64,000 nt of DNA from Gammaproteobacteria bacterium (lineage in GTDB: Bacteria; Pseudomonadota; Gammaproteobacteria; Thiohalomonadales; Thiohalomonadaceae). Shown piece by piece: positions 43,957-53,985 of the stretch; the stretch's first letter is position 1, and the number at the start of each line of letters is the position of its first letter. The notes beneath the pieces were generated by a model. The model worked only from the letters and a program-made list of their open reading frames with translations, did no database searches and was not told the DNA's origin. The stretch is from positions 16,240 to 80,239 of the forward strand of contig JAPHSX010000053.1 in the NCBI GenBank assembly GCA_026196575.1, written 5' to 3'. The position numbers were made by a program, and so were the translations under genes.

Positions 43957-44836
43957 CGGCTTCGTGGCCATCGTCGGCAGACCCAATGTGGGCAAATCGA
44001 CGCTGATGAACCACATCCTGGGGCAGAAGATCAGCATTACCTCGAGCAAGCCGCAAACCACGCGCCACCGTATTCTGGGCATCAAGACTGACGAGCAGAG
44101 CCAGGTGATCTATGTCGATACCCCCGGGGTGCACCTTAATGCGAAGAACGCGATGAACCGTTATATGAATCGGGCCGCGACCTCCAGTATCGAGGATGTG
44201 GAGCTGATCCTCTTTCTGGTCGAGGCGACCACCTGGACCGAGGAGGACGAGAATGTCCTGCAACGGCTGAAGGGGGTCAAGGCACCGGTGGTACTGGTGG
44301 TCAACAAGATCGATCGCATCAAGGAGAAGGAGGAGCTGTTCCCGGTACTGGAGGCGCTGGCGCAGAAGATGGACTTTGCCTCGGTGATCCCGCTCTCGGC
44401 GCTCAAGGGCTCCAATGTAAAGGCGCTGGAGCGGCTGGTCACCGAGCGGTTGCCCGAGGCGGAGCCGATGTTTCCCGAGGAGTACGTGACCGATCGCAGC
44501 GAGCGTTTTCTGGCCGCCGAGCTGATTCGGGAAAAACTGATGCGTGGCCTGGGCAAGGAGCTTCCCTATTCCACCACCGTGGAGATTGAGAGTTTCAAGC
44601 AGGAGAAGGGGATGCTGCGCATCCACGCCCTGATCTGGGTGGAGCGTCAGAGCCAGAAGCGCATCGTGATCGGCAAGGGTGGCGAGAAGCTCAAGGAGGT
44701 GGGACAGCAGGCACGGCTCGATATGGAGCGGCTGTTCGATACCAAGGTATTTTTGCAGTTGTGGGTCAAGGTGAAGGAGGGGTGGTCGGATGATGAGCGG
44801 CTCCTCAACAGCCTTGGTTACAAGGATGAGTTCTGA
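43928..44836 (+). CDS. era: GTPase Era
   Basis: [44 protein letters not shown] domain. Confidence 0.98.
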
Positions 44837-45560
44837 GCAGCGGGTAGCGCTGCAACCCGCCTACCTGCTGCATCGCACGCCGTTTCGTGATAGCAGTCTG
44901 CTGCTCGAACTCTTTACCCCGGGGCATGGCCGCATTGGCCTGGTGGCGCGTGGCGCACGCGGTGCCCGCTCCAAACTCAAGGGGGTGCTGCAACCCTATC
45001 AGTTGCTGTTGATCAGCTGGAGCGGTCGCGGTGAGCTGCCGACGCTCACTGGCGCCGAGTGCCAGGATGGCGGCGTCTTTCTGCAGGGCGATGCCCTGAT
45101 CAGTGGCTTCTATCTGAATGAGCTGCTGCTGCGCCTGCTGGCGCGTCATGACCCCCACCCCCATCTGTTTCACCGTTATCAGGTCGCACTGCAGGGCTTG
45201 ATTGCCAACGCGGGGGTGGAGTGGGCGTTGCGCCTCTTCGAGCGTGACCTGTTGCAGGAGTTGGGTTATGGCCTGCTGCTAACCCATGAGGGGGGAGACG
45301 GCAAGGAGGTCGAGGCCGATGCCCTCTACTGCTATCATCACGAGTCGGGGCCGCAGCGCATCGCCACCGAGAGCCGTGGCGTGCTCTCGGTGCGCGGCGC
45401 CACCCTGTTGGCGCTGGCGCGGGGCGAGTGTGGGGATGCGCAGTTGCGCCGCGAGAGCAAACTGTTGATGCGCGAGGTGCTGGGGCGCTATCTTGGCCCA
45501 CGTCCGCTTGCCAGTCGGGAGCTGTTTCGCCAGAAATGGCCATCTAGTCACGAGGAGTAA
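44826..45560 (+). CDS. recO: DNA repair protein RecO
   Basis: [35 protein letters not shown]; start set to ATG 44826 rather than 44790. Confidence 0.95.
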
Positions 45561-45563
45561 CTG

Positions 45564-46304
45564 TTGAGCGTTAAAGAGAACATTCTGCTGGGGGTGAATA
45601 TTGACCATGTGGCCACCCTGCGTCAGGCACGGGGAACCCGTTATCCCGACCCCATTCAGGCGGCCATTGAGGCGGAGCAGTCGGGGGCCGACAGCATCAC
45701 CCTGCACCTGCGTGAAGATCATCGCCACATTCAGGAGCGCGATGTGCGCCTGCTGCAGGAGATTTTGCAGACGCGGATGAATCTGGAGATGGCGGTGACC
45801 GACGAAATGCTGGCGCTGGCCGAGGAGCTTCGTCCCTCCGACTGCTGCCTGGTGCCGGAGAAGCGTGAAGAGCTCACCACCGAGGGCGGACTGGATGTGG
45901 CCGCAGCGCCGGGGCGCATTGGCGATGCCTGCAAACGGCTGGCCGATGCCGGGGTGCGTGTCTCGCTCTTTATCGATGCCGAGCCCCGGCAGATCGAGGC
46001 GGCGCTCGCCTGTGGCGCGCCGGTGATCGAGATCCACACCGGCCACTACGCCGATGCCACCAACGAGGCGCAGCAGGCGCAGGAGCTGGCGCGTATTCGG
46101 GAGGGGGTGCGGCTCGCCCACGCGGCGGGGTTACAGGTGAATGCCGGTCACGGCCTGCACTATCACAACACCCGCGCCATCGCCGAGATGGCGGCGATCC
46201 GTGAACTCAATATTGGCCACGCCATTATCGCGCGTGCGGTTTTTGTCGGTCTGCAAAGTGCCGTCGCAGAGATGAAACGTCTGATGGTTGAGGCGCGCGG
46301 GTGA
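45564..46304 (+). CDS. pdxJ: Pyridoxine 5'-phosphate synthase
   Basis: [27 protein letters not shown]...[15 protein letters not shown]. Confidence 0.98.
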
Positions 46305-46681
46305 TCTTCGGCATCGGCACCGATATTGTCAGTGTGTCGCGCATGGAGCATGCACTGGCGCGACACGGCGAGCGTTTCGCGGAAAGAATCCTGGCTGCGG
46401 TGGAACTGGCGGAGTATCGCCAGAGCAGCAAGCCGGCCCATTTTCTGGCGAAACGTTTTGCGGCCAAGGAGGCGGCCGCCAAGGCCTTTGGCACCGGTTT
46501 TCGTGACGGGCTCGGGATGGGCGATTTTATTATCGGCCATGATGGGCTGGGCAAGCCGCTGCTGCAGTTTGCCGGACGCGCCGAGCTGTTCTGTCGTCAG
46601 CAGGGTGTCGGTGAGAGCTTTCTCTCCATCTCCGATGAGAAGGAGCACGCCGTCGCCTTCGTCACCCTGCTTAAATCCTGA
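46301..46681 (+). CDS. acpS: Holo-ACP synthase
   Basis: [19 protein letters not shown]...[16 protein letters not shown]. Confidence 0.97.
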
Positions 46682-46686
46682 AGAGA

Positions 46687-47109
46687 GTGCCCCCCATGCT
46701 GGAATATCTGTTTTTTGATGAGGCCATTCGTGACAAGTTCGTCGCCTTTCTTGCCGAGCGCAAGGTCGAACATCGGCTGAGTGACGCTGACGCCCTGCTG
46801 ATCGAGGTAGCCGAGGATCTGGATGATGCCACGGGCGATGCCATCGACCACTGCTATGAGACCCTGCTGCAGGAGACCGCAGCGCTGATGGAGCAGGGGG
46901 CCGATGCCCTGGAGAAGAATGTCGCCGGGGTGCAGGTGCAGTTGGCCGATGGTGCCATCTGCACCGTGCGGCTTGATCCCGACCTGGTGGGGCGCATCCT
47001 CGGTTGTATCTCCATGGCGGAGTTGCGCGACATGGTGCAAGAGGTGGCGCACTGGGTGGAGTTGAAGGACAACAGTCCGTTGTGTCATCTCGTAGAGCTT
47101 GAACAATGA
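46687..47109 (+). CDS. Hypothetical protein (140 aa), first gene of MBL/SQR-like operon
   Basis: ORF 5 nt after acpS and overlapping the next gene by 4 nt; MLEYLFFDEAIRDKFVAFLAERKVEHRLSDADALLIEVAEDLDD... Confidence 0.8.
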   Translation: MPPMLEYLFFDEAIRDKFVAFLAERKVEHRLSDADALLIEVAEDLDDATGDAIDHCYETLLQETAALMEQGADALEKNVAGVQVQLADGAICTVRLDPDLVGRILGCISMAELRDMVQEVAHWVELKDNSPLCHLVELEQ

Positions 47110-48023
47110 TGAAATTTTTCTCCCTGTTGCTATTACTGGTGAGTGTGCCTGCCACCAGTGCGCAGTTTGAGCTTGAGGTGCAGCAACTGGCGCCGAATGT
47201 CTATGCACTGGTGGGTGAGCTGGAGCAGCGCTCTGATGCCAACCTCGCCAACAACGCCACCTTTGGCGTGGTGGTGACGGAGGCGGGCGTCGTGCTGATC
47301 GACTCGGGCGGCAGTTACCGTGGTGCCGGGCAGATCGCGCAGACCCTGAAAAACATTACCGACAAACCGGTGGTGCAGGTAATCAATAGCGGCGGCCAGG
47401 ATCACCGCTGGCTGGGTAATGGCTATTTCAAACAGCAAGGGGCGCGGATCATCACTTCGGCGGCGGCGCTGGCCGATCAGAAGAGCCGTGCCACGGATCA
47501 GATGCTGGCACTGCAAAATTTTCTCACTGCCGATAATCTCAAGGGAACCGAACCGCTCTTCGCCGAGGAGAGCTTTGAGGAGTCAACGTCGTTACAGTTT
47601 GGCGGCGTGACGTTTGAACTGCAGCGCGTAGGCCCGGCACATACACCTGGTGATGTGTTGGTGTGGTTGCCACAACAGCGTATCGCCTTTGCCGGCGATG
47701 TGGTCTATGTGGAGCGCATGCTCGGGGTTGGGTCGATGTCCAATAGTGGTCACTGGCTCCAGGCCTTCGAGAGACTGGCCGCGCTGCAACCCGAGTGGGT
47801 GGTGCCGGGGCATGGCCATGCGGTGAGCCTTGCACAGGCGCGAGCCGACACCTATGACTATCTGATATTTTTGCGCGAGGCGGCAGGCAAGATGATCGAT
47901 GAGGGGCTCGGCATGGAGCGTGTGGGAGAGATTGACCAATCCCGTTTCAGCTACCTGCGGGTCTATGAGCAAATCAAGGGGCGCAATGCGCAGCAGGTCT
48001 ACTCCGAAATGGAGTGGGAGTAA
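47106..48023 (+). CDS. Exported metallo-beta-lactamase-fold protein with atypical metal motif
   Basis: Signal peptide MMKFFSLLLLLVSVPATSA; INSGGQDHRWLGN in place of the HxHxDH motif; AHTPGD, FAGDVVY and VPGHG present. Confidence 0.88.
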   Translation: MMKFFSLLLLLVSVPATSAQFELEVQQLAPNVYALVGELEQRSDANLANNATFGVVVTEAGVVLIDSGGSYRGAGQIAQTLKNITDKPVVQVINSGGQDHRWLGNGYFKQQGARIITSAAALADQKSRATDQMLALQNFLTADNLKGTEPLFAEESFEESTSLQFGGVTFELQRVGPAHTPGDVLVWLPQQRIAFAGDVVYVERMLGVGSMSNSGHWLQAFERLAALQPEWVVPGHGHAVSLAQARADTYDYLIFLREAAGKMIDEGLGMERVGEIDQSRFSYLRVYEQIKGRNAQQVYSEMEWE

Positions 48024-48065
48024 ACCGCTCAATAATTCACTCAATCACACTGTCAGGAACAAACA

Positions 48066-49199
48066 ATGAGCAGCCATCATATCACCGTTATTGGCAGCGG
48101 CTTTGCCGCCCTGGCCTCTGTACGCGAGCTTCGTAAACGTGACCCGGAGGCTCACATTACGGTGATCGCACCCAGGGCCGAATTTGTCTATCTCCCCAGT
48201 CTCATCTGGATCCCCTCGGGGCTGCGCCAACCCGACGAGTTGCGCATTCCACTGGATAACTTCTTTGCCCGCATGCGCGTCGAGTTCATCGCCGCCGAGG
48301 TGACGGGACTCAGGGAGGGCGGTCGTACTGTGGAGACCACGGCAGGCGAGGTGGCGAATGATGCACTGATCATTGCTTCGGGCGGGCGCTTCATAAAGAA
48401 ACTTCCGGGCATCGAGCACGCCATCACGCCGTGTGAGGGCGTTGAGTCGGCGCTAAAGATCCGTGAGCGTCTCAAGGCAATGAGTGGCGGCACCATTGCC
48501 ATCGGTTTTGCCGGCAATCCGCAGGAGCCGTCGGCAATGCGTGGCGGTCCGATGTTCGAGTTTCTCTTTGGTATCGACACCCTGCTGCGCCAGCAGGGAC
48601 GGCGCGACAAGTTCAAACTGGTCTTCTTCAGTCCGGCCGCGGAGCCGGGGAAACGTCTCGGCCCGAAGGCGATGACGGGGTTGCTCGATACTATGCGCCG
48701 GCGCGGCATCGAGACCCGCCTGGGGCATAAGATGAAGGCATTCGAGTCGAACAAGGTGATCACCGAAGGGGGTGAGTTCGCGGCCGATCTCATCCTCTTC
48801 ATGCCGGGGATGACCGGCAACCTCTGGTTTGATAACAGTGAACTGCCGCGCTCCGCGGGCGGGCTGCTGCAGGCCGATGCGCAGTGTTGCGTGCCTGGCT
48901 TTGCACATCTCTATGTGGCCGGTGATTCCGGCAGCTTTCCTGGCCCGGAGTGGATGCCCAAACAGGCGCACATGGCCGAGCTGCAGGCGAAGGCGGCGGT
49001 GGCCAATCTGCTGGACGAGCTGGCGGGGGGCGAGGCGAAGGCGAGCTTCAGGGTGGAGTTGATGTGTATTGTCGACAGCCTTGATCGCGGCATGTTTGTG
49101 GCGCGCACCACGCAACGCGCCATAGTGCTGCCGCCGCTGCGCATCGCCCACTGGGCGAAGCGGATCTTCGAGTGGTGGTTTTTGCGCCAGTTACGCTAA
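48066..49199 (+). CDS. FAD/NAD(P)-binding oxidoreductase, sulfide:quinone oxidoreductase-like
   Basis: HITVIGSGFAALASVRELRKRDPEAHITVIAPRAEFVYLPSLIWIPSG; LYVAGDSGSF; Cys123 and Cys334; basic/aromatic C-terminal tail. Confidence 0.82.
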   Translation: MSSHHITVIGSGFAALASVRELRKRDPEAHITVIAPRAEFVYLPSLIWIPSGLRQPDELRIPLDNFFARMRVEFIAAEVTGLREGGRTVETTAGEVANDALIIASGGRFIKKLPGIEHAITPCEGVESALKIRERLKAMSGGTIAIGFAGNPQEPSAMRGGPMFEFLFGIDTLLRQQGRRDKFKLVFFSPAAEPGKRLGPKAMTGLLDTMRRRGIETRLGHKMKAFESNKVITEGGEFAADLILFMPGMTGNLWFDNSELPRSAGGLLQADAQCCVPGFAHLYVAGDSGSFPGPEWMPKQAHMAELQAKAAVANLLDELAGGEAKASFRVELMCIVDSLDRGMFVARTTQRAIVLPPLRIAHWAKRIFEWWFLRQLR

Positions 49200-49204
49200 C
49201 CCGG

Positions 49205-49402
49205 CTAATTCAATGCGACGATCACGATGCCATTGACAACGATCAGCAGAACCGCCGCCACCAGCATGATGGTCAAACGACGGCGACGGCTGGCGTGCTC
49301 ACGCTCTACCCGCGCAATCGCCTGATTGACGGCGTCCACCCGATCACTCTGGCGACGGAATGGCGGATAGGGGGAAGATTCGATCTTTCGTGCGGTGTTC
49401 AT
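49205..49402 (-). CDS. Small hypothetical membrane protein
   Basis: MNTARKIESSPYPPFRRQSDRVDAVNQAIARVEREHASRRRRLTIMLVAAVLLIVVNGIVIVALN; one C-terminal TM helix. Confidence 0.55.
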   Translation of the reverse strand: MNTARKIESSPYPPFRRQSDRVDAVNQAIARVEREHASRRRRLTIMLVAAVLLIVVNGIVIVALN

Positions 49403-49530
49403 TACGCTAAGTCCCTGGTAAAACCATTTATTATTCTTTGGTGGCTGGCCACGGATGGACCCCGCAAGGGTAGCCACCCAAATCGGGGCCGCATTCTAGC
49501 AGAAAACAGATTGGATGGTGCTGACTAATC

Positions 49531-50727
49531 ATGAAATTTGCCGAGTTTACAATCTCCACCCTGCCGCGCATCTACTTTGGCGAGGGACGACTGGAGTTGC
49601 TCCCCGCGCTGATTGCCGAATATGGCCGGCGGGTGCTGGTGGTATCGGGCAAGAGTTCGTTTTCTGACTCACCACATTGGCAAACCCTGCAACAGGGGAT
49701 GGCGCAGGCGGGGTTGACGCACCAGCTCTTCGGGGTGGCGGGCGAGCCTTCACCGGCGCTGGTCGATAGCGCCGTGCGCGAATTTCATCAAGAGGGTTTC
49801 GAGGTGGTGGTCGGCATCGGTGGCGGCAGTGTACTGGATGCGGCCAAGGCGATCGCCGGCCTGCTCCCCAGCGGCCGATCGGTACTGGCCCACCTGGAGG
49901 ATGTGGGGGAGGGGCTCCCTTATGAGGGACCGTCGCTTCCCTTTATTGCTGTACCCACCACGGCTGGTACCGGCAGTGAGGCGACCAGGAATGCCGTGCT
50001 GAGTGAGCAGGGGACGGGGGGGTATAAAAAATCGTTTCGCCATGAGTCGCTGGTGGCGCGGGTGGCGCTTGTCGACCCCCTGTTGCTGGAGCATTGCCCC
50101 CGTGAGCTGATCGCCGCGCAGGGGATGGACGCCTTTACCCAGCTGCTCGAATCCTATGTCTCGCTGCGCGCCAACCCCTTTACCGATGCCCTTGCCTGGT
50201 CGGGACTGGAGGCGATAGCCCAGGGCTTTTTTGCCGCCTACGATGGCGGCGATGATGAGGCGGCGCGCCAGGGACGGGCAGCGATGGCCTATGGGGCACT
50301 GCTCTCGGGGATCACCCTGGCCCAGGCGGGGTTGGGCTCAGTGCATGGGCTGGCACAACCGCTGGGATCCCTATTTTCAGTACCCCACGGCATTGCCTGT
50401 GGCACTACCCTGGCGGTGGCGACCGAGGTGAATATCAAGGCGCTGCGTGAGCGCGCGCCACAGAGCCCGGCGCTGGCAAAGTACGCAAGGGTGGGACGGC
50501 TGCTGCTCGGTGATCAGCGCCTTTATGAACAGGCCGCCTGCCACGCCCTGGTCAGCCAGTTGCAGATGTGGACAGAGCGTATGGCAATCCCACGCCTGGG
50601 GCAATTCGGTATTGGCATGGATGACTTGCCTCTCATCATCGCCAATGCGCGAGGCAACAGCATGCAGACCAACCCGATATGGCTTAGCGATGAGGAGATA
50701 GGAAAGATTGTCAGCCGCAGGGTGTAG
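49531..50727 (+). CDS. Iron-containing alcohol dehydrogenase family protein
   Basis: GIGGGSVLDAAKAIAGLL, PTTAGTGSEATRNAVL, GSVHGLAQPLGSLFSVPHGIACG. Confidence 0.92.
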   Translation: MKFAEFTISTLPRIYFGEGRLELLPALIAEYGRRVLVVSGKSSFSDSPHWQTLQQGMAQAGLTHQLFGVAGEPSPALVDSAVREFHQEGFEVVVGIGGGSVLDAAKAIAGLLPSGRSVLAHLEDVGEGLPYEGPSLPFIAVPTTAGTGSEATRNAVLSEQGTGGYKKSFRHESLVARVALVDPLLLEHCPRELIAAQGMDAFTQLLESYVSLRANPFTDALAWSGLEAIAQGFFAAYDGGDDEAARQGRAAMAYGALLSGITLAQAGLGSVHGLAQPLGSLFSVPHGIACGTTLAVATEVNIKALRERAPQSPALAKYARVGRLLLGDQRLYEQAACHALVSQLQMWTERMAIPRLGQFGIGMDDLPLIIANARGNSMQTNPIWLSDEEIGKIVSRRV

Positions 50728-53553: not shown

Positions 53554-53985
53554 ATGAAAAGATATTTTCCACCACTGTTTATTGCATTCACCCTGGCGCT
53601 GGCCAGCCCTGTGCTGATTGCCGAGGAGGAAGAACAACCTGCCGCCGGACCATCACAGCAAGGCTATGGGTGGGGGCCGGGAATGATGCAGGGTCCCGGT
53701 TATGGATATGGTCCAGGGATGATGCGCGGCCCCGGTTATCAGATGGGTCCGGGGATGATGTATGGCCCCGGCTATGGCTATGGCCCCGGTTATCGAATGG
53801 GGCCCGGGATGATGTATGGCCCGGGATATGGCCCAGGTTATCCGATGGGTCCGGGGATGATGCAGGGCCCCGGGTACGGGTGGGGACCTGGTTATGGTTG
53901 GGGTCCCGGCGGTGACAATGACACGGCACCCAATTTCCGCTGCCCCGGATCGCCTTACGACCCCAGGTGCAGTGGCCGGCGTTAA
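53554..53985 (+). CDS. Secreted Gly/Pro/Tyr/Met-rich repeat protein (sulfur-globule-protein-like candidate)
   Basis: Signal peptide MKRYFPPLFIAFTLALASPVLIA; five GPGMM units; SD-like AAGAGGAG upstream; C-terminal CPGSPYDPRCSG. Confidence 0.8.
   Translation: MKRYFPPLFIAFTLALASPVLIAEEEEQPAAGPSQQGYGWGPGMMQGPGYGYGPGMMRGPGYQMGPGMMYGPGYGYGPGYRMGPGMMYGPGYGPGYPMGPGMMQGPGYGWGPGYGWGPGGDNDTAPNFRCPGSPYDPRCSGRR
53662..53913 (+). repeat. Degenerate coding repeat of GYGPGMMxGPGY type
   Basis: Repeated GGTCCGGGGATGATG / GGCCCCGGTTATGG-type blocks at DNA level. Confidence 0.85.

Follow-up and report, generated by a model that had tools for sequence, protein, structure and literature searches.

A small protein encoded beside a predicted type VI sulfide:quinone oxidoreductase is a candidate accessory protein of sulfide oxidation in Gammaproteobacteria

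Described systems and layout of the locus

The sulfane sulfur made by sulfide:quinone oxidoreductases (SQRs) must pass onward, and many sulfur oxidisers have two SQR types. Among sulfur carriers, DsrC has an essential-looking cysteine near its C-terminus. In Paracoccus the sox cluster closes with soxH, after soxF and soxG, and SoxH is the best named counterpart there of the second protein described here; the literature on SoxH function holds little beyond its position in sox clusters. Clusters of the order soxF-soxG-soxH have also been described, and in Sulfitobacter SoxH may stand apart from the sox genes, so that a sox-cluster location is usual and not required (PMC11034169). For the SQRs, the characterised type VI enzyme is SqrF of Thiocapsa roseopersicina (TrSqrF, KY595105), an active SQR with two key cysteines. 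Models place a covalent link to FAD at Cys121; Cys332 is flanked by V331 and I333, and the residues F366 and W369 contribute to quinone binding (PMC9666304). Type VI SQRs have a single C-terminal helix (PMC9666304), and Alvin_1195 of Allochromatium vinosum is a known SqrF (PMC3368242).

The locus analysed here lies in a 64,000-nucleotide stretch (the window) of a contig from a sulfur-oxidising member of the Thiohalomonadaceae and contains three open reading frames on the plus strand, at 46687-47109, 47106-48023 and 48066-49199. These ORFs, the 4-nt ATGA overlap between the first two (47106-47109) and the 42-nt gap before the third had all been called correctly in the original prediction, and the many homologues recovered in searches with each of the three proteins exclude chance ORFs. 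The same prediction had the unit begin 5 nt after acpS, which is corrected here: aligned homologues of the first protein, designated U137, start MLEYxFF, so that its start is most likely the ATG at 46696 and not the GTG at 46687, giving a predicted protein of 137 aa that begins 14 nt past the end of acpS (46681). The features are as follows.

46301..46681, plus strand: acpS, which ends the conserved operon upstream of the module and is given for context
46696..47109, plus strand: U137, putative SQR-associated small protein of 137 aa, assigned from homologue starts and SQR co-occurrence, with no family match
47083..47085, plus strand: codon of the invariant Cys130 of U137, in the C-terminal tail
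47106..48023, plus strand: predicted SoxH-family metallo-beta-lactamase-fold protein of 305 aa, by homology to Paracoccus SoxH and a G013 protein
47388..47405, plus strand: codons of the degenerate HxHxDH motif, S95-G-G-Q-D-H100 (NENGQGH at the same site in Paracoccus SoxH)
48066..49199, plus strand: SqrF, predicted type VI SQR of 377 aa, by residues, fold and C-terminal helix
48432..48434, plus strand: codon of Cys123 (TrSqrF Cys121), invariant in alignment A1
49065..49067, plus strand: codon of Cys334 (TrSqrF Cys332, between quinone-site residues), invariant in alignment A1

The three-gene stretch forms the 3' end of a lepA-rnc-era-recO-pdxJ-acpS operon, and the upstream order lepA-lepB-DUF4845-rnc-era-recO-pdxJ-acpS is common to most genomes of family f1. 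Co-transcription of acpS with the three ORFs is plausible. A scan of 44700-50000 returned no promoter-like site, which is weak evidence because shuffled sequences yield 1.4 sites on average.

The flavoprotein and the metallo-beta-lactamase-fold protein

The only Pfam match of the third product is to pyridine nucleotide-disulfide oxidoreductases, its nearest PDB structures by sequence are SQRs (E 3e-23), and its predicted model (pLDDT 85) aligns with Aquifex SQR at a TM score of 0.91. In an alignment of 25 relatives and two outgroups C123 and C334 are fully conserved and C274 is present in most sequences, and the middle redox cysteine of other SQRs (the Cys160/178 equivalent) is replaced by AMRGGPMFE. 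At an offset of 2 residues C123, C334, I335, F368 and W371 fall on C121, C332, I333, F366 and W369 of TrSqrF, and the TrSqrF quinone site V331/I333/F366/W369 reads M333/I335/F368/W371 in the window protein, with three of the four positions identical and the fourth apolar. Of the Chromatiaceae orthologues compared, two agree exactly with the published numbering at both cysteines, I333 and F366, and W369 is likewise present in one of these two. The C-terminus of the model consists of strands (residues 332-358) followed by a lone helix (359-374). Judged by the residue numbers published for TrSqrF, the product of 48066-49199 is a predicted type VI SQR. It is like TrSqrF in the placement of the two cysteines, the Ile, Phe and Trp of the quinone site, the one C-terminal helix and the SQR fold; it differs in having Met for Val at the first quinone-site position and, at the level of the gene, in being encoded alongside U137 and a SoxH-family protein.

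That the third gene instead encodes an NDH-2-like quinone-linked flavoprotein, which lost SQR function together with the middle cysteine, would account for the absence of a Cys160/178 equivalent, and NDH-2 structures are also close to the model. Genes for cytochrome bd and Rieske-like proteins are neighbours in Burkholderiales. All NDH-2 structures nevertheless score below the SQR structures, and the residue pattern is that of the active type VI enzyme, leaving this alternative very improbable. The Burkholderiales loci concerned (L141, L144, L156, L191, L192 and L205) have sqrF next to a truncated globin gene and to genes for cytochrome bd oxidase or Rieske-like proteins, an arrangement consistent with a quinone-linked role of SqrF. 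Overall sqrF is found in 61 of 369 Gammaproteobacteria genomes, and its named carriers include Thiothrix, Sedimenticola, Thiodiazotropha, Chromatiaceae and Burkholderiales; in Thiothrix fructosivorans the gene is on plasmid pTfr446 (L128 10001-11116). A second SQR-like clade (L123 7114-8295), about 36% identical to SqrF and bearing an RGGQMYE motif, is related to the Nterm_to_SelD family and occurs in several of the sqrF genomes.

The second product opens with a clear, apparently Sec-type export signal of about 19 residues. The canonical dinuclear-zinc motif of metallo-beta-lactamase (MBL)-fold proteins, HxHxDH, is absent from it, S95-G-G-Q-D-H100 standing in its place with two metal-binding His lost; the Asp-His of the second metal site, PAHTPGD, GD and PGHG are kept, and a degenerate HxHxDH of this kind is found throughout the clade. 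Identity to Paracoccus SoxH is 36% over 310 aa (E 3e-63) with a C-terminal signature common to both proteins, and comparison with Paracoccus SoxG revealed no similarity. In the genome G013, which belongs to the same family, a 54-56% identical homologue closes a soxX-A-B-Y-Z-thioredoxin (soxXA-B-YZ-W) operon, in G106 a homologue adjoins a TusA-like gene, and soxB is present in 19 of the 20 genomes that carry the clade. These features identify the product of 47106-48023, at the level of sequence, as a periplasmic SoxH-family protein. It resembles SoxH in the MBL fold, the export signal, the degenerate HxHxDH, the PAHxPGD/GD/PGHG motifs and the C-terminal signature, and differs in the modest identity and in the location of its gene, away from sox genes and beside sqrF. 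The gene lies outside any sox cluster in the window genome, where soxB stands alone on contig C63 and the 47106-48023 product is the sole close SoxH homologue, so that soxH appears to have been relocated beside sqrF. The best NCBIfam matches, both full length, are TIGR04558 and TIGR04559 (SoxH_rel_PQQ_1/2); membership in these quinoprotein relay hydrolase families was rejected, the scores of 142.9 and 152.8 bits falling short of the respective curated thresholds, 300 and 280 bits. On a Pseudosulfitobacter plasmid (L246 4341-12846) a SoxH-family gene of 55% identity is accompanied by genes for a thioredoxin, a permease, OsmC, TauE/SafE and an arsenate reductase (azurin).

Linkage of a SoxH-family gene to sqrF is confined to the window and family f85 (G103 and G226). 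The gene orders differ between the two, implying that the SoxH-family gene joined independently, and its presence in the unit in only two lineages marks it as a facultative member. The loss of two canonical metal ligands, and the lack of any MBL gene at this locus in the closest relatives, could also mean that the MBL-fold protein is catalytically dead, or a beta-lactam-type enzyme unrelated to sulfur, and is here by chance. We consider this quite unlikely, given that the degenerate motif is conserved in the clade and in Paracoccus SoxH, that a sox operon within this family ends with a sister gene, and that the gene adjoins sqrF in two families in different orders.

The deviations at canonical active-site positions noted in the original prediction are thus real in both enzymes (S95-G-G-Q-D-H100 in the second ORF, AMRGGPMFE in the third), and its view that they set the unit apart from the standard SQR pathway was partly right: they are the family norm of SqrF and SoxH, both known families, and point to no new chemistry. 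Novel SQR chemistry was rejected on the match to the type VI literature and its residue numbering. Beyond U137 the unit holds nothing unusual and shows that two seemingly odd active sites are normal for their families; its novelty is U137, which represents a protein family linked to SQRs.

Conserved residues, neighbours and co-occurrence of U137

Profile and sequence searches with U137 gave no Pfam, NCBIfam or PDB match, a Foldseek comparison of its predicted model (pLDDT 83) with the PDB found nothing significant, and a plasmid search returned no match. U137 is an acidic, mostly alpha/beta small protein with no export signal. Among the non-redundant homologues that reach the C-terminus C130 is invariant (41/41); F15 (42/42) and F7, G86 and E109 (each 41/41) are the other invariant residues. 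The remaining cysteines vary, many homologues having C130 alone, and C130 sits in a tail, VExPDDxPxC, that is predicted to be flexible (pLDDT 63-70).

U137 adjoins sqrF in the same direction in four families (f1, f35, f85 and f110), and this pair is the core of the unit. In family f1 U137 usually lies between acpS and sqrF, and in families f35, f85 and f110 (the last Thioglobus-like, with L202 as a named example) it is away from acpS yet directly upstream of sqrF. The suggestion that U137 might belong functionally with acpS and pdxJ only is rejected on these grounds, since in the latter three families it stands beside sqrF in loci that lack both genes. In a fifth family (f16) U137 follows a type I SQR gene, the product of which has Acidithiobacillus SQR as its best PDB match. 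The pair is common and not obligate, as U137 follows acpS without sqrF in one genome (G008) and sqrF is kept without U137 in four others (G001, G010, G015 and G017). Most genomes have U137 adjacent to no SQR gene, which counts against an SQR-accessory reading. The original proposal is weak as regards a fixed unit of three genes: U137 and SqrF are the conserved pair, and the MBL gene joins them only in two lineages, in differing order.

Across the full set of 369 Gammaproteobacteria genomes (counts likewise not tree-corrected in the smaller sample below) SqrF is present in 32 of the 42 that have U137, against 61 SqrF-positive genomes overall (odds ratio 33, p 1e-20), and the odds ratio is 8 among genomes with dsrA and 175 among those without. 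In a thinned sample of 143 genomes (about one per family) type I SQR occurs in 13/13 genomes with U137 and 27/130 others (p 1e-8), and SqrF in 11/13 and 12/130, respectively (p 1e-8). Type I SQR is also present in nine of the ten genomes that have U137 and lack SqrF. Together with the gene neighbourhoods, these counts make an association of U137 with SQR enzymes likely.

The same counts bear on whether U137 could be a general protein of sulfur-oxidising Gammaproteobacteria, acting for example with the reverse Dsr pathway, with its SQR link a reflection of lifestyle. In the thinned sample dsrA is present in 12 of the 13 U137 families (p 2e-5), and the U137-dsrA link is still seen when only genomes with type I SQR are counted (p 0.013), indicating that part of the U137-SQR signal may be due to a sulfur-oxidiser lifestyle. 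Among the dsrA-negative genomes of the full set, however, SqrF is found in 9 of 11 with U137 compared to 15 of 250 overall, SqrF-positive genomes show no further link between U137 and dsrA, and U137 adjoins SQR genes in five families. On balance we judge the lifestyle explanation unlikely.

Proposed roles and flanking genes

We hold it fairly probable that the three genes form a sulfide-oxidation locus in which U137 is an SQR accessory protein, with SqrF as its partner and the SoxH-family protein as a facultative member; this is the best explanation of the evidence as a whole. The original prediction of a sulfur-related membrane or periplasmic redox module is supported by this assignment of SqrF, the SoxH-family protein and the SQR-linked U137, and by the presence of dsrA, soxB and a type I SQR gene in the same genome. 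From its membership in the biochemically characterised type VI group, SqrF would oxidise sulfide with FAD and pass the electrons to quinone, yielding sulfane sulfur or polysulfide. U137, as an accessory protein of SQR enzymes, might receive or shuttle this sulfane sulfur, or contact the active-site cysteines of the SQR, a role suggested by the lone invariant cysteine on a flexible C-terminal tail encoded beside SQR genes. The SoxH-family protein, which belongs to a sox operon in relatives, has probably retained a single metal site, given that D99, H100 and the His/Asp residues further on are all present, and, by conjecture, may act on a periplasmic sulfur-carrying thiol or ester.

The neighbourhood and co-occurrence evidence also fits an SQR partner that acts in assembly, membrane docking or regulation (e.g. 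FAD insertion or active-site protection) and carries no sulfur, and an acidic alpha/beta protein with conserved F7, F15, G86 and E109 could form a binding surface for such a purpose. The most striking feature of U137, the lone cysteine in a flexible tail, is better suited to thiol chemistry, and we regard this alternative as somewhat unlikely, if the strongest of those considered. Within the SQR-accessory reading a role of U137 as a sulfane-sulfur carrier is possible, at a rather low probability, and would need U137 and SqrF to be on one side of the membrane. By analogy of working, U137 is like DsrC/TusE and TusA in being small and soluble with an essential-looking cysteine, and it differs from these carriers in that profile and fold comparisons found no sequence or fold similarity between them. 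The bolder proposal, that U137 is the founding member of a family of acceptors or carriers dedicated to sulfane sulfur from type I and type VI SQRs of Gammaproteobacteria, with C130 handing this sulfur to the cytoplasmic oxidation pathway, is doubtful. U137 tracks both SQR types, adjoins the genes of both and ends in one invariant cysteine, and as such is a testable candidate for an SQR accessory protein or sulfur acceptor.

Several relatives have arsS (TIGR04167) and two arsenosugar-type glycosyltransferase genes just past sqrF (L087 10066-13172, L090 9553-11943 and L095 3986-6280), preceded in L087 by a gene for a MerA-like flavoprotein, and arsS adjoins sqrF once in family f35 (L088 7336-8298). 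An arsenosugar pathway was rejected as part of the unit, no arsS being found above cut-off in the window genome, which keeps the downstream Fe-alcohol dehydrogenase gene (49531-50727). Further along the window, 53554-53985 encodes an apparently secreted protein rich in GPGY/GPGMM repeats (MMQGPGYGYGPGMM...).
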